A stretch of 64,000 nt of DNA, taken from the NCBI GenBank assembly GCA_902596665.1, contig CACJUN010000001.1, forward strand, positions 257,680 through 321,679, in the 5' to 3' direction. Origin of the DNA: an uncultured SAR86 cluster bacterium. Lineage in GTDB: Bacteria > Pseudomonadota > Gammaproteobacteria > Magnimaribacterales > AG-339-G14. Position numbers and translations under genes: made by a program. The notes under the pieces were generated by a model. It did not search any database, was not told where the DNA came from, and was given only the letters and a program-made list of their open reading frames with translations. Shown here one piece after another: positions 30,876-36,911 of this stretch (the first letter of the stretch is position 1; every line of letters starts with the position of its first letter).

Positions 30876-31889
30876 ATGATCAAATATATTAATAATATTG
30901 CTGGTATTTTAATTTTATTAAATATTTTTGATCAGATTTTATCTTCAAGCAAAATTATTCCAGAAAACATTTATTTCGATATTTTTGTTATAGCTTCGTA
31001 TATTTTTTTTGGGACAGAGTTTATTTTAAGGATAGTTATTGAAAGAAGATTTTCTTTCTTATTAGTTTTTGATTTTGTAGTTCTTGCTAATTATGTTTTC
31101 TTTGGTTTTTACGATTTAAGAATATTAAGAATTTTTAGAGCTTATTCAATTTACAGTAATCATAAGATGTTATTACCAACAAACACCTTACTGAGAACAG
31201 TGTATAACCAACGTTTAGCGTTATTAGGGTCTCAGATAATGGTTTTTTCAGTTCTGTTAATTTTTTCTACTTTAATTCACTTCATTGAAAGGGATATAAA
31301 TCCTGAATACTTTGGATCCATTCTTAACTCAATGTGGTTTGGAATAGCTACCCTAACAACAGTAGGATATGGAGATGTAACTCCTTCATCTCCTTTAGGT
31401 CAAGTTTTAACTTCTTTGACAATGTTTTTAGGTATCGGAATGTTTGCATTACCTGCAGCAATTTTAGCTTCAGCTTATTATGAGGAAATTCAAAAAAGAA
31501 ATTTCCTTATTACGATGGAAACAATCTCTAGTATTCCATTATTTTCTATGTTGCCTATTGGAGCATTAAGTAAAATAAACGATAAGTTGGTTGCAGAGAT
31601 TTATCCTGCTAAAAGAAAAATTATTGAAAAAGGTGATGATGCAGATTGCATGTATATTATCGAGTTTGGTTCGGTGCAAGTTGAAATAGAATCTCCTGTT
31701 ACCTTGGGGCAGGGTGACTATTTCGGTGAAAAAGGAATTCTTTCCAAGGAAGTGCGCAATGCGTCAATTAGTTCTCTGGAAGAAGTCAAACTCCTTTCGC
31801 TATCTAAAGAAGATTTGGAAGAATTAATGGAAGAGTATCCACATCTCTTTGAAGAGCTTGAAAAGGTAAGTTTAGATAGAATCGGTTAA
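30876..31889 (+). CDS. K+ channel with C-terminal cyclic-nucleotide-binding domain
   Basis: 337 aa; S1-S6 hydrophobic pattern, filter TLTTVGYGDVTPSS, CNBD ADCMYIIEFGSVQVEIESP...GDYFGEKGILSKEVRNASI. Confidence 0.9.
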   Translation: MIKYINNIAGILILLNIFDQILSSSKIIPENIYFDIFVIASYIFFGTEFILRIVIERRFSFLLVFDFVVLANYVFFGFYDLRILRIFRAYSIYSNHKMLLPTNTLLRTVYNQRLALLGSQIMVFSVLLIFSTLIHFIERDINPEYFGSILNSMWFGIATLTTVGYGDVTPSSPLGQVLTSLTMFLGIGMFALPAAILASAYYEEIQKRNFLITMETISSIPLFSMLPIGALSKINDKLVAEIYPAKRKIIEKGDDADCMYIIEFGSVQVEIESPVTLGQGDYFGEKGILSKEVRNASISSLEEVKLLSLSKEDLEELMEEYPHLFEELEKVSLDRIG

Positions 31890-32629
31890 TTAAATGAATA
31901 AGAAAATTTTGTACTCAGACCTTGATCATCTTCAACGGCATTTGTTATTGGATCTGAATCATAGGCTATATCGTATTGGAGACTGATGCTAAATTTCTCA
32001 TTTACCAGGAAATTAAAAGCCATAAGAAAACTTGCCTTATAGTCACTAAAATCAGTGACTCCTGGTTGGTAATAAATTGTAGTATTAAAGTTCACATTTT
32101 CAGCAACTTCAAAGTTATCATGGAAGTATGCTGAGAGCCTTGTAGTATTTGACACAAAGTTCTCTAGATCGGTCTCTTCTTCGTAGATCACTCCAGCTCC
32201 AAATCTCATTTGGTCATCTATGATCATTCTTAGACCGGTACCAAATAAGTTTCTTTCTCTAAATAACCTAAAAGGATTTTTAGCTGACTGAATAAAAAAT
32301 TCGGTATGGTATTGATTGTATGTCTCGAAGACAGATCTTATATGAATGAGTTGGGATATATCCGTGACGTTTTGATTAATTTTCCTTTCAGATTTTCTAA
32401 GAATCATGAAATTTTCGACATCATCAAGATTGTAGTCAAATCTTAGATCTAAAGAATAAAAATCTCTGTCTCTATTACCTCTTGAAGCATTCAAAGAAAA
32501 ACCAAGACCAGCAAAAAAACCTTCTTTACCTTCATTCCTTAACTCTTCTATGTTCACAATAGTCTGAGAAATAGCTATTGACGGCAAAAATAGTGCAATA
32601 AAGAGGAGTTTACTTAGTTGTTGCAACAT
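31886..32629 (-). CDS. Putative outer-membrane beta-barrel protein of unknown function
   Basis: Signal peptide MLQQLSKLLFIALFLPSIAISQ, alternating aromatic strands, terminal SLQYDIAYDSD...FSYSFN; overlaps the end of the cyclase ORF. Confidence 0.6.
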   Translation of the reverse strand: MLQQLSKLLFIALFLPSIAISQTIVNIEELRNEGKEGFFAGLGFSLNASRGNRDRDFYSLDLRFDYNLDDVENFMILRKSERKINQNVTDISQLIHIRSVFETYNQYHTEFFIQSAKNPFRLFRERNLFGTGLRMIIDDQMRFGAGVIYEEETDLENFVSNTTRLSAYFHDNFEVAENVNFNTTIYYQPGVTDFSDYKASFLMAFNFLVNEKFSISLQYDIAYDSDPITNAVEDDQGLSTKFSYSFN

Positions 32630-34793
32630 ACGCTCCATTCCATTTTGGATCAGCTAAATTAAGCTTCATGTCTTTAATTCTGTCTTTAAAAATAGCGTAG
32701 TATAAATCAAACTCTATAACATGTTGCTCCCATTTCTCAATAAAGTTTAAAGCTACATCCCATTGTTGATTTCTATAATTATGAAGAAAATCTTCATGAT
32801 CTTTAATGAATTCGGATAATTCTGCATCTTTCAATGAGAATTTATCAAAAGAAGTATAAATTTTTACAGGTTCACTTTTTCCTTTTACTTGAATCAGATC
32901 TAATTCGAAAAGATTTGCATTTGATTTAAGGGCATTCACTGTTTCTTGACCAAGAATCCTCTGAAATCCATAAGTTCCAGATTGACCTTCTAATCTTGAA
33001 GCAAGGTTTACAGGATCACCTAAGACCGTGTAATCAAACCTTTTTTCAGAACCCATATTTCCAACAATACATTCTCCGGTATTGATTCCAATACCAATTT
33101 TTAGTTCCATTCCTTTTTGTTTTTGGAATTCAATATTAAATTCCTCTAATGCTTTTTCCATATCAAAAGACGCTTTTAAAGCTAAATCGGTATGATTTTC
33201 TTGATCTGTGGGTGCATTCCAAAATGCCATAATGCAATCTCCCATATATTTATCAATCGTGCCTGCGTTATCTAAGATTTCATTTGATAGGACTGTAAGG
33301 AGGTTGTTTATAAGTTCCGTTAGCTCTTCAGGATTGGATTTATAACTTTCTGATATGGCTGTAAATCCTCTAATATCAGAAAATAAGAAGGTCATATTTT
33401 TCTTTTCTCCACCAAGCTTCAGCGATTCACTTGATTCTGCAAGTCTAGAAACCATTTCTGGAGCTAAATATTGAGAGAATGCTGTTCTAACCTTACTTCT
33501 TTCTAATTCAGTAAAAAGAAAATTAAAGAAAGTTATTATTAAATAACTTGTTAAGCATATTATCAAAGGAGAAATAGGATCTATTAAATAATCTAATTCG
33601 TTGAAACCATAGAAAGAACCATAAAGACTGCTTAAATTTGCTAATAAAAATGTTATCAAGCCCCCGACAGGACCAAAATATTGAATGATTAAGCAAATCA
33701 AAATAGAAAAAAGTAAGCCAAATAAAAACTCTGCTCCTTCCATCCAATCTGGTCTAACTAAAAAATCTCCATTTATAATTTGTTGAATACCTTGAGCTAT
33801 GATTGTGACACCAGGTATATCTTTCTCCAGAGCCGTATTTCTAATATCCAGCAATCCTGACGCACTTGTCCCTACAAGGACAATTTTTCCAGCAAAGAAT
33901 TCTTTATCGTAAGTATTATTTATGACTTCAAAGGCTGGAATAATGTTCAAATTTTCTTTAAATGTTGAATGCAGCCAAAGGTAACCGTTCGAATTAGTTG
34001 GAATTATTACGTTTCCTAGTTTTACGTTGTTTATACCAGTGCTTTCACCAAAAGCTAACTCTCCTGAAGCATTGGATGACTTAATTTGATACGTGCTTGC
34101 TCCTATTGCAACTCTTAAGGTTTCCAGCATCAAAGAAGGTACTATCTGTCCATTCACCACTTCAAACGTTGGCAGGCTTCTGACAATACTTGAATCTCCT
34201 CCAATACTCATAGACCCAACGCCAGCAGAAGAATCTATTAAAGTTGGTAAATTGTTTTGCATACCCGTGTAATTAGGAAGAAACTCTTTTGGTGAGTCAC
34301 CCTGAATTATTAGGCCGTATTTAGGTGATAAATCTCCAGTTATTAATTTATTATTTGGAGCACTTCCTAGGACAACTGTAGAGTGTGATTCCATAGACTC
34401 TGCGAATACTTTGTCATTTGGTTTTATTTTTTGTAACTCTTTAATAAGATCAGAGTTTGTAGAATATTGCTCAGATAGAACGTCACTTCCTGTTCTGTCT
34501 CTTTCAGCAAAAACAATATCAAATGATGTAGTGAGAGCCTGCTCTGTATTACTAACCAATCTAGATAACAGATCTCTAGACCACGGCCATTGACCTAAAT
34601 TATTTAACGACTGATCATCAATATCAATTATTACAATGGGATCGTCTTCTAACTGATCCCTTGGGCTTATTTGCTGCAAAGTATCGAAAGCAAACAATCT
34701 TAAATCGTTAAAAATATTAAACGGATTCGCTAAAGGAATTAATCCTATTAAAATAGCTAAAGGTAGAAGTAATTTTTTTTGAATGTTCTTCAT
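32610..34793 (-). CDS. Class III adenylate/guanylate cyclase with extracytoplasmic CHASE2 domain
   Basis: 727 aa; CHASE2 DDPIVIIDIDDQSLNNLGQWPWSRD, TM segments, cyclase FLFSDIRGFTAISE...TIDKYMGDCIMAFWNAP, RFDYTVLGDPVNLASRLE. Confidence 0.93.
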   Translation of the reverse strand: MKNIQKKLLLPLAILIGLIPLANPFNIFNDLRLFAFDTLQQISPRDQLEDDPIVIIDIDDQSLNNLGQWPWSRDLLSRLVSNTEQALTTSFDIVFAERDRTGSDVLSEQYSTNSDLIKELQKIKPNDKVFAESMESHSTVVLGSAPNNKLITGDLSPKYGLIIQGDSPKEFLPNYTGMQNNLPTLIDSSAGVGSMSIGGDSSIVRSLPTFEVVNGQIVPSLMLETLRVAIGASTYQIKSSNASGELAFGESTGINNVKLGNVIIPTNSNGYLWLHSTFKENLNIIPAFEVINNTYDKEFFAGKIVLVGTSASGLLDIRNTALEKDIPGVTIIAQGIQQIINGDFLVRPDWMEGAEFLFGLLFSILICLIIQYFGPVGGLITFLLANLSSLYGSFYGFNELDYLIDPISPLIICLTSYLIITFFNFLFTELERSKVRTAFSQYLAPEMVSRLAESSESLKLGGEKKNMTFLFSDIRGFTAISESYKSNPEELTELINNLLTVLSNEILDNAGTIDKYMGDCIMAFWNAPTDQENHTDLALKASFDMEKALEEFNIEFQKQKGMELKIGIGINTGECIVGNMGSEKRFDYTVLGDPVNLASRLEGQSGTYGFQRILGQETVNALKSNANLFELDLIQVKGKSEPVKIYTSFDKFSLKDAELSEFIKDHEDFLHNYRNQQWDVALNFIEKWEQHVIEFDLYYAIFKDRIKDMKLNLADPKWNGAYVATTK

Positions 34794-34830: not shown

Positions 34831-36153
34831 ATGTTTGTTAGATATATTTTATTACTATTTATCTTTTGTTTCGGTGTTTTTGCATTAGCACAAAACGTAC
34901 CGCCGACTATATCGGATCCTGAGCAATTAGAAACCATTAGAAAAGAAAGGCAAGCTATTTTTGATGAATTAATAGAAGATCCAACTAATCAAGGCAATTT
35001 ATTTAAATACGCCAATCTATCAATTATCTTAGGAGATTTAGAGGCAGCAATAGGGGTCTTTGAACAAATGTTAATTTACGATCCTACTCTGGCAAGGATC
35101 AGGCTAGAACTGGGAGTACTTTATTTCAGGCTAGAAGCCTACGCTCCAGCAAAATTATACCTTGATAGTGTAAAAGACTATGATCCACCTGAGGAAGTCA
35201 TTACAAAAGTTGAATCCTTTTTAGCTGCTATTGAAGAACAGGAAAAGCCACTTACGGTTAATCAATTGATGACTTTTGGACTTGCTAGCTCTACAAACGC
35301 TAACGCCGGTATAGATGCTGATATCATAGAAATTGCTGGTTTTCCTCTTGAAGTTTCTCCTGATTCAAAACCGCAATCTGATTCAAAATTCTCTGTCAAT
35401 TATAATTTATCTTTGACTCAAAATTTGAATAACCCTCGTGGTGATGCAATTAATTATTTTCTTGCAGTTGCAACCACCTATCAATCTAGATTTACACAAT
35501 TTGATCAAAGAAGTTTTGTTTTTGGTTTAAATAGCAGATTAGATGTAGAGGAGGGTAGTTTAGGATTACTTAAAAATCCATCAGTAATTCCAAGTTTTAC
35601 GAGAATTCAAGTTTACTTACAAGGAGAACCTCTTCTTGAATCTAATGCTTTCAGCGTGAGTCACTCCGGATCTTTATCGAATGGCTCTGTTTTTGAATAT
35701 GGTTTTAATGTAGATAAAAGAAATTTTATTGGATTAGATGCAAAGAGTGGTTATCGATATGGAACTTTTGTGAATAATACTTTTAATCTTCCGAATAATA
35801 ACTCTAGTTGGACTATGAATATCTTCTCCGATAAATATGAGGCCAATCAAAAATTTGAGTCTTTTAGGCAATGGGGTTTCGGTTTTAATTATAGAATGCC
35901 TCTTCCAGATGCATGGGTTATGGCTGCAAATTATGATTGGTCTACTAAAAACTATCTTGCTCCTAATGGACCTCTTGGAACAAGAAAAGACATTAACGAA
36001 TCATCAGATTTAACCTTTTCAAGACTCTATATAAATTGTTTGTCTATGAATATTTTTCTAAAACCGTTCGATAATAGAAGTAGCATTGATATATTTTCAA
36101 GAAGTAATACTGATGTAGGTGTAAACCTTTCTTATCTTTGCTTAAATAACTAA
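34831..36153 (+). CDS. Secreted TPR protein with C-terminal beta-barrel-like region
   Basis: 440 aa; signal peptide, TPR-like GDLEAAIGVFEQMLIYDPTLARIRLELGVLYFRLEAYAPAKLYLDSV, strand-rich C-terminus. Confidence 0.65.
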   Translation: MFVRYILLLFIFCFGVFALAQNVPPTISDPEQLETIRKERQAIFDELIEDPTNQGNLFKYANLSIILGDLEAAIGVFEQMLIYDPTLARIRLELGVLYFRLEAYAPAKLYLDSVKDYDPPEEVITKVESFLAAIEEQEKPLTVNQLMTFGLASSTNANAGIDADIIEIAGFPLEVSPDSKPQSDSKFSVNYNLSLTQNLNNPRGDAINYFLAVATTYQSRFTQFDQRSFVFGLNSRLDVEEGSLGLLKNPSVIPSFTRIQVYLQGEPLLESNAFSVSHSGSLSNGSVFEYGFNVDKRNFIGLDAKSGYRYGTFVNNTFNLPNNNSSWTMNIFSDKYEANQKFESFRQWGFGFNYRMPLPDAWVMAANYDWSTKNYLAPNGPLGTRKDINESSDLTFSRLYINCLSMNIFLKPFDNRSSIDIFSRSNTDVGVNLSYLCLNN

Positions 36154-36185: not shown

Positions 36186-36911
36186 ATGAATCAGATAGTT
36201 CAATTTTTCTTAAAGATTAGAAATAGTCGTTTTTTTAATGGAATCGTAATTTTTGTAATAATAGGCTCTGCAATTTATGCAGGAGTTAGTTCTTATGATC
36301 TCTCAGAGAATTATGTTGAATTACTGAACTTTTTAGATACCGCAATAACAGTTTTCTTCTTGATAGAGATTCTTATTAGAATAGTCGCTGAACGATCTCT
36401 AATAAAATTTTTCAAAGGCGGTTGGAACGTTTTTGATTTTATTATCGTAACTGTCAGTTTAATTCCAATCACGGGAGGAGAGACAGCGTTTGTTGCAAGA
36501 TTGCTCAGAATTGTCAGGGTATTAAGAATTATCACTGTTGTTCCTGCCTTGAAAAAAATTGTAGATGCGCTTTTTGAAACCCTTCCAAGAGTTGGCTTTG
36601 TAGCCCTTTTAATGTTTATTTTCATCTATATATGGGCAGCAATAGGCACTTTAGTTTTTGGAACAACAGATCCAGAACATTGGGGTAACATTGGCCTTGC
36701 TATGCTTACCCTTGCGCAGGTCGCAACATACGATGACTGGGCAGCAGTTATGAAAGATATTATTGAGGTATTTCCTTGGGTGTGGATCTACTTTATAAGT
36801 TTCATTTTGCTTAATGCAGTTATCATGTTGAATATGGTGATTGGAATTATTGTTGATGTTATGTCCAAGAAATCTAGTAGCGGTCAGTTAAGCGCAGATG
36901 AGAATCAATAA
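36186..36911 (+). CDS. Single-domain voltage-gated cation channel (bacterial NaV family) with acidic DD filter
   Basis: 241 aa; S4 RLLRIVRVLRIITVVPALKK, pore QVATYDDWAAV aligns with QVMTLESWSM of NavAb, S6 NAVIMLNMVIGIIVDVM. Confidence 0.9.
   Translation: MNQIVQFFLKIRNSRFFNGIVIFVIIGSAIYAGVSSYDLSENYVELLNFLDTAITVFFLIEILIRIVAERSLIKFFKGGWNVFDFIIVTVSLIPITGGETAFVARLLRIVRVLRIITVVPALKKIVDALFETLPRVGFVALLMFIFIYIWAAIGTLVFGTTDPEHWGNIGLAMLTLAQVATYDDWAAVMKDIIEVFPWVWIYFISFILLNAVIMLNMVIGIIVDVMSKKSSSGQLSADENQ

Follow-up and report, generated by a model that had tools for sequence, protein, structure and literature searches.

A single-domain voltage-gated channel of the SAR86 group, an abundant bacterial lineage of the surface ocean, naturally carries a selectivity filter with two adjacent aspartates, TYDDWAA. 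This DDW filter is presented on a scaffold resembling NavRh and the ancestor-like BacNavs, a combination which is new here, the single-domain voltage-gated channel type itself being already known. The protein is read, at a probability of about 0.5, as a homotetrameric depolarisation-gated cation channel that would let Ca2+ pass with a modest preference for divalent cations; this value, like the weights behind the two rival selectivities considered below, is a judgement and not the outcome of a computation. That nature has produced a Ca2+-permeable channel in this form, as the preliminary description of this DNA had proposed, is a plausible hypothesis.

The gene occupies positions 36186..36911 on the plus strand of the window, that is, of the whole 64,000-nucleotide stretch of DNA from a SAR86 marine gammaproteobacterium that was analysed. 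It starts with ATG, encodes 241 amino acids with six predicted helices, is under purifying selection and matches the Pfam family Ion_trans (PF00520) over residues 15-230 with E=1.4e-42. The S4 gating charges R105, R108, R111 and R114 (ARLLRIVRVLR; 36498..36527, plus strand) are invariant in a 30-sequence alignment reaching down to 43% identity, as are the acidic residues E61 and D84 and the conserved N216 of the S6 helix (36780..36884, plus strand, delimited by the alignment and an AlphaFold2 model), so that the voltage sensor and the gate look complete from the sequence. Six helices, the S4 arginines and the pore with its succession of S5, P1, filter, P2 and S6, recognized by Pfam, alignment, model and Foldseek, place the protein in the single-domain BacNav-type voltage-gated superfamily. 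Its C-terminus stops about 15 residues past S6, where the pLDDT of the model has fallen under 50 (residue 234 onwards), while the TFEDWTD relatives (265-290 amino acids) extend about 30-45 residues further; judged by sequence length and model, the C-terminal coiled-coil domain, a canonical BacNav trait, is absent. The 1.28-Mb, 94%-complete host genome holds two channel genes of the superfamily, both within the window, the other being of the K+ type (30876-31889), and no second BacNav-type gene. The SAR86 isolate AG-911-D02 possesses an ortholog 99.6% identical to the window channel. A promoter and terminator scan around the gene gave matches no commoner than in shuffled sequences, and a phage origin was discarded, with one weak tblastn phage match (28% identity) and no relative among viral contigs.

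The preliminary description had located TYDDWAA at 36726-36746 in a native voltage-gated channel, which is borne out by the exact codons, the Ion_trans match and the fold: these nucleotides (plus strand) are the seven codons of residues 181-187 in the pore segment LTLAQVATYDDWAAVMKDIIEVFPWVW, and the motif is conserved among orthologs. In the AlphaFold2 model, built for the monomer chain on an alignment of 30 sequences (mean pLDDT 78.8, pTM 0.55, about 82-92 in the pore), pore helix P1 spans residues 169-180 (36690..36725, plus strand), the filter turn T-Y-D-D residues 181-184, and pore helix P2 starts at W185 and extends to residue 193 (36738..36764, plus strand). D183 and D184 are thereby put in the turn between P1 and P2, and the aspartate pair thus lies inside the filter. 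A Foldseek search with the model returned NavRh first, followed by NavAb, NaChBac and CavAb structures. A gapless alignment with NavAb, also claimed earlier, applies to a stretch of 12 residues and fails for the pore as a whole, where a one-residue gap directly follows the filter tryptophan. Accordingly shorter by one residue than in NavAb, as seen from the model and the distance between the tryptophans, is the P2 segment: 15 residues separate the filter tryptophan from that of S6 in the window channel versus 16 in NavAb, NavMs and NaChBac. The spacing of 15 is equally found in the DDW, NavRh-type, TLEGWPD and E-D-W-T-D channels, and that of 16 in TFESWAT channels. Because of the gap after the tryptophan, the equivalence of filter position 7 (A187 with M181 of NavAb or N181 of CavAb) is not secure.

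A survey of filter conservation across the order covered 203 genomes and found a relative of the channel in 71. The filter reads T[YF]DDW[AG][AN] in 56 genomes and TLEGWPD in four, the remaining ones that were read being of the NavRh type (TLSSW, TMSSW or TVSGW); a 57th genome belongs to the DDW set with a channel truncated ahead of the filter. None of the 56 orthologs with the filter region present, the most distant about 59% identical, deviates from T181, D183, D184 and W185, whereas position 2 is tyrosine with the exception of one phenylalanine, position 6 alanine or glycine, and position 7 alanine or, in 7/56, asparagine. All full-length SAR86 orthologs have an open reading frame, and within-genus dN/dS amounts to about 0.004-0.02 (dS 0.46-2.8, dN 0.002-0.034). 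The channel gene and its filter are maintained under strong purifying selection, and the aspartate pair is no product of chance. Among the side observations of the survey, four SAR86 channels (L059, L061, L062 and L063) display TLEGWPD, very near the Ca2+-selective TLEGWVD of CavMr with glycine at position 4, and are candidate native Ca2+ channels. In one locus (L058, equal to L191, on a 3,135-bp contig) the channel match starts at about residue 98 behind a cyclase fragment in unusual orientation, reflecting either a rearrangement or an assembly chimera. A contig titled Opitutia (L168, from a Verrucomicrobiota MAG) carries the channel and the giant gene described below at SAR86-like identity and is probably misbinned.

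The scaffold on which this filter resides is not the NavAb-like one implied earlier. In a maximum-likelihood tree calculated with the filter columns removed, and with CavMr and NavPp not among the sequences, the DDW proteins form one clade (100/99) with TLEGWPD and gammaproteobacterial TFEDWTD/TFESW channels as sister (99/93); the NavRh-type channels branch next (100/100), and a 100/99 branch parts all of them from the NavAb-like TLESW channels. The shorter P2 segment goes along with this grouping. Outside SAR86, the proteins nearest to the window channel (identity of at most 54%) carry TFEDWTD or TFESW, mostly TFEDWTD. Among the TFEDWTD channels of the sister branch is that of Onishia taeanensis; a tested AnclNav comes from Halomonas elongata, to which this species is related. 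Nested among these TFEDWTD gammaproteobacterial relatives, six loci (L073, L075, L102, L103, L107 and L192) encode TFESWAT with a 16-residue P2 segment, which suggests a shift of filter and P2 towards the canonical type. As the simplest reading of the filter history, an ancestral E-D-W-T-D would have become D-D-W-A-A, with D4 old and the exchange of E3 for D and the loss of D7 new. Of the resemblance to CavAb described earlier, the aspartates at positions 3 and 4 stay, but D4 is already present in the TFEDWTD group, and specific for SAR86 are the change from E3 to D and the lost D7. Equally, the tyrosine in place of leucine is no oddity: an aromatic residue at position 2 characterises the group and is present as phenylalanine in TFEDWTD.

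Comparison with named channels leads to the same neighbourhood. With respect to the canonical BacNavs NavAb and NavMs, the window protein has aspartate instead of glutamate at position 3 (TYDDWAA), falls outside the NavAb-like clade and departs from the spacing of 16. Among solved single-domain chains searched with phmmer, NavRh (PDB 4dxw, from the alphaproteobacterium HIMB114) scored best (1.8e-63), ahead of NaChBac and NavAb; it shares the spacing of 15, the short C-terminus and the marine host, but its TLSSWE filter with serines at positions 3 and 4 has the carboxylate one residue past the tryptophan, and its own clade (100/96) excludes the DDW proteins. The ancestor-like BacNavs with TFEDWTD or TLEDWTD, the group of CavMr and NavPp (PMC7041947), have in common with the SAR86 channel D4, an aromatic residue at position 2 and the length of P2. 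Of their E-D/G-W-x-D signature, D4 is present in the SAR86 proteins, while position 3 is aspartate instead of glutamate, position 7 alanine or asparagine instead of aspartate, and the C-terminus is shorter; CavMr itself has glycine at position 4. CavAb, engineered from NavAb (PDB 5klb and 6juh), agrees in the fold and, within its filter TLDDWSN as verified against the PDB chains, in T1, D3, D4 and W5, and differs by the NavAb scaffold, the spacing of 16, leucine at 2 and serine at 6. A CavAb-like filter is consequently retained for the aspartates at 3 and 4 and not for position 7, where alanine replaces the asparagine or aspartate of the engineered channels; the seven orthologs with TYDDWAN match CavAb in 5/7 filter letters. 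The resemblance to CavAb is convergent, on a different scaffold. Eukaryotic CatSper1 of sperm, likened here by its published description and not by sequence, is Ca2+-selective with aspartate at the high-field-strength (HFS) and beacon positions (PMC10120453), but works as a heterotetramer with CatSper2-4.

Natural DDW filters occur beyond SAR86. A pattern scan over 369 gammaproteobacterial genomes at class level recovered the window's as the only DDW channel, the nine other pattern matches being non-channels; restriction of the filter to SAR86 was ruled out by two genomes of a phylum-level scan (G845 and G891) and by records of a plasmid collection. The G891 channel, TFDDWMA, is very distant and belongs to a divergent pseudomonadotal family (L252/L264) with a TFDDWME relative in G947. 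The G845 channel (L265:997-1806, equal to L268) combines the filter TFDDWSN with a scaffold that shares 47% identity with NavAb; among 45 genomes of its family, four have TFDDWS[N/A/G] and two TLESWSM. From its 66% identity to a TFDDWSG channel on plasmid pMVF16-1 of Microvirga sp. VF16 (L279), this family is inferred to be alphaproteobacterial; one DDW match of this type (L270) bears a single in-frame stop. The actinomycetotal Nonomuraea gerenzanensis (L283) has TGDDWGN. Like the SAR86 protein, the TFDDWS[N/A/G] channels (L268-L271 and L279, probably all from alphaproteobacteria) are single-domain voltage-gated channels with a natural DDW, but scaffold, filter and P2 sequence are NavAb-like and the origin is independent, which brings them closer to CavAb than the window protein and than any other natural channel encountered in the analysis. 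In a second tree, without the TFDDWMA sequence L252 with its extreme branch length in the first, the SAR86 and alphaproteobacterial DDW sets form separate well-supported clades and the aspartate pair needs at least three changes, which rules out DDW as a single ancestral state.

What such a filter conducts is predicted in opposite ways by the published experiments. In NavAb, the replacement of serine by aspartate at position 4 alone (TLEDWSM) raised the permeability of Ca2+ over Na+ about 100-fold, three aspartates (TLDDWSD) created a Ca2+ channel, and a review rule holds one-domain channels with the beacon aspartate D4, CatSper1 included, to be Ca2+-selective (PMC10120453). In the NavRh/ancestor-like neighbourhood the CavAb rule is unreliable because NavPp, with TLEDWTD and 12 filter charges, is Na+-selective (PCa/PNa 0.31) and blocked by Ca2+, the block being stronger with TLEDWAD (PMC7041947). 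The SAR86 protein might hence be a voltage-gated Na+ channel of the NavPp kind, in which external Ca2+ binds to the two aspartate rings and causes partial block, and which in seawater would provide a small, Ca2+-damped influx of Na+ for Na+ re-entry or for pH or flux control. Against the Ca2+ reading count indeed the NavRh/TFEDWTD scaffold, including the nearest non-SAR86 relatives and the shorter P2 common to both, the block of NavPp, the alanine at position 6 as in TLEDWAD and the missing asparagine or aspartate at position 7. On the other hand, the HFS residue is aspartate and not glutamate, D7 of NavPp is missing in the SAR86 channel, and the tree that defines the neighbourhood is one without NavPp and CavMr. 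In NsvBa (TLDSWGS), aspartate at this position 3 goes along with a non-selective, divalent-permeable pore, conduction of Ca2+ and Ba2+ is retained in G189A (TLDSWAS), and glutamate at the HFS site makes the channel Na+-selective (PMC4225499). On balance, D3 speaks against a strictly Na+-selective pore and D4 in favour of divalent cations being bound, and a NavPp-like conductance is considered rather unlikely.

The same HFS aspartate could be taken to indicate a non-selective cation channel like NsvBa or EukCatA, which would discriminate little between Na+, K+ and Ca2+ and serve mainly as a voltage-triggered depolariser. OsEukCatA1 with aspartate at the HFS site is listed as non-selective (PMC10120453), and discrimination among monovalent ions is lost both in CavMr-G4D, where PCa/PNa drops to 7.7, and in CavMr-Pp with the D4 filter of NavPp, where it is still 13.8 (PMC7041947). 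NsvBa and OsEukCatA1, however, do not possess an aspartate at position 4, the addition of which increases divalent preference in NavAb (PMC10120453), and NsvBa with an LDDWADG filter arrives at a PCa/PNa of about 30 (PMC4225499), which renders a channel with little preference unlikely. That the locus is degenerate, a pseudogene, or encodes a subunit that does not conduct without a partner is very improbable: NavRh (PMC4225499) and two AnclNavs (PMC7041947) gave no current in heterologous cells, but in SAR86 the frames are open, dN/dS is about 0.004-0.02, S4, filter and S6 are intact and a second BacNav-type gene is absent from the genome. The silence of these channels means that the function of the SAR86 channel may be hard to show. 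A literature search retrieved no electrophysiology for any member of the SAR86 DDW clade; on channels of SAR86 or Microvirga and on newer ones of the CavMr type, it yielded nothing relevant past the papers cited.

In the preferred reading of a Ca2+-passing channel with modest divalent preference, four subunits would assemble in the SAR86 inner membrane into a homotetramer opened by depolarisation, with a ring of four D183 at the HFS site and above it four D184 as beacon, together eight negative charges. At the approximately 10 mM Ca2+ of seawater, both aspartate rings would be occupied by Ca2+. Aspartate being shorter than glutamate, the HFS ring would be wider and less Na+-selective, and therefore Ca2+ would pass and not merely block, with a PCa/PNa that would exceed 1 but probably fall short of the several hundred reached by CavAb or CavMr. 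Depolarisation would then cause a brief entry of Ca2+, followed by its removal through the Ca2+/cation exchanger of the genome; an exchanger of the CaCA type is encoded, although such exchangers are widespread.

The gene neighbourhood adds a hint. In the window genus, a gene for a TPR protein with a predicted beta-barrel in the outer membrane (34831..36153, plus strand) adjoins the channel gene 32 nt upstream and is probably co-transcribed with it; in other SAR86 genera this gene lies 5' of a giant cadherin-repeat gene. A Slam-type identity of the protein was dismissed, as Pfam gave no match of this kind at a threshold as loose as E=5. Divergent from the TPR gene, and beside it in several SAR86 genera, is a gene for a Pfam-recognized CHASE2-domain adenylate/guanylate cyclase (32610..34793, minus strand). 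As a conserved functional partner of the channel, the pair of cyclase and TPR protein was rejected as a weak link, being next to the channel only in the window genus and about 7-8 kb off in some others. The cyclase may supply the ligand of the K+-type channel (TTVGYGD), which carries a cyclic-nucleotide-binding domain and is encoded at a distance of about 0.7 kb from the cyclase gene's 3' end.

The giant cadherin-repeat gene is found just upstream of the channel on the same strand in 39/55 named SAR86 loci, representing the majority of the other SAR86 genera, but not in the window genus, with distances from its end to the channel of about 40-50, 80-180 or 560 nt (examples are L182:129-7949, L150:1552-7956 and L163:565-7818). 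Complete copies of about 2,000-2,600 amino acids open with a weakly FecR-like segment, close with a unique C-terminal domain, and contain an acidic Ser/Glu stretch and several cadherin repeats recognized by Pfam with E values as low as 1e-112. This domain is present in 52 of the 203 SAR86 genomes, 49 with and 3 without the DDW channel, while 8 have the channel only and 143 neither, a co-occurrence with a Fisher p of 9e-35 among lineages that are not independent. The window genome has three copies of the domain away from the channel, on contigs C7, C11 and C12 about 3.7-6 kb from the contig starts, where repeats probably broke the assembly; in four further genomes (G074:C6, G068:C11, G070:C8 and G054:C1) the match to the domain contains single in-frame stops. 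Cadherin repeats usually bind Ca2+, and the giant neighbour is therefore a hint of a Ca2+ role. That SAR86 evolved a natural homotetrameric DDW Ca2+ channel, independent of the other DDW lineages and of the glycine mechanism of CavMr, which links Ca2+ entry on depolarisation to a co-transcribed, giant and Ca2+-binding cadherin-repeat surface protein, is distinctly unlikely as a whole.

The SAR86 filter is a place where two predictions oppose each other, as the beacon aspartate rule of NavAb and CavAb leads to Ca2+ and the result with NavPp to Na+ with Ca2+ block. A natural aspartate pair on two scaffolds, with short P2 and NavRh/ancestor-like in SAR86 versus NavAb-like in alphaproteobacteria, bears on whether the filter letters or the scaffold determine Ca2+ selectivity and, equally, on native bacterial Ca2+ channels beyond CavMr, the single reported case. 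If the channel is Ca2+-permeable, voltage-linked Ca2+ entry would be placed in common, uncultured bacteria of the ocean.
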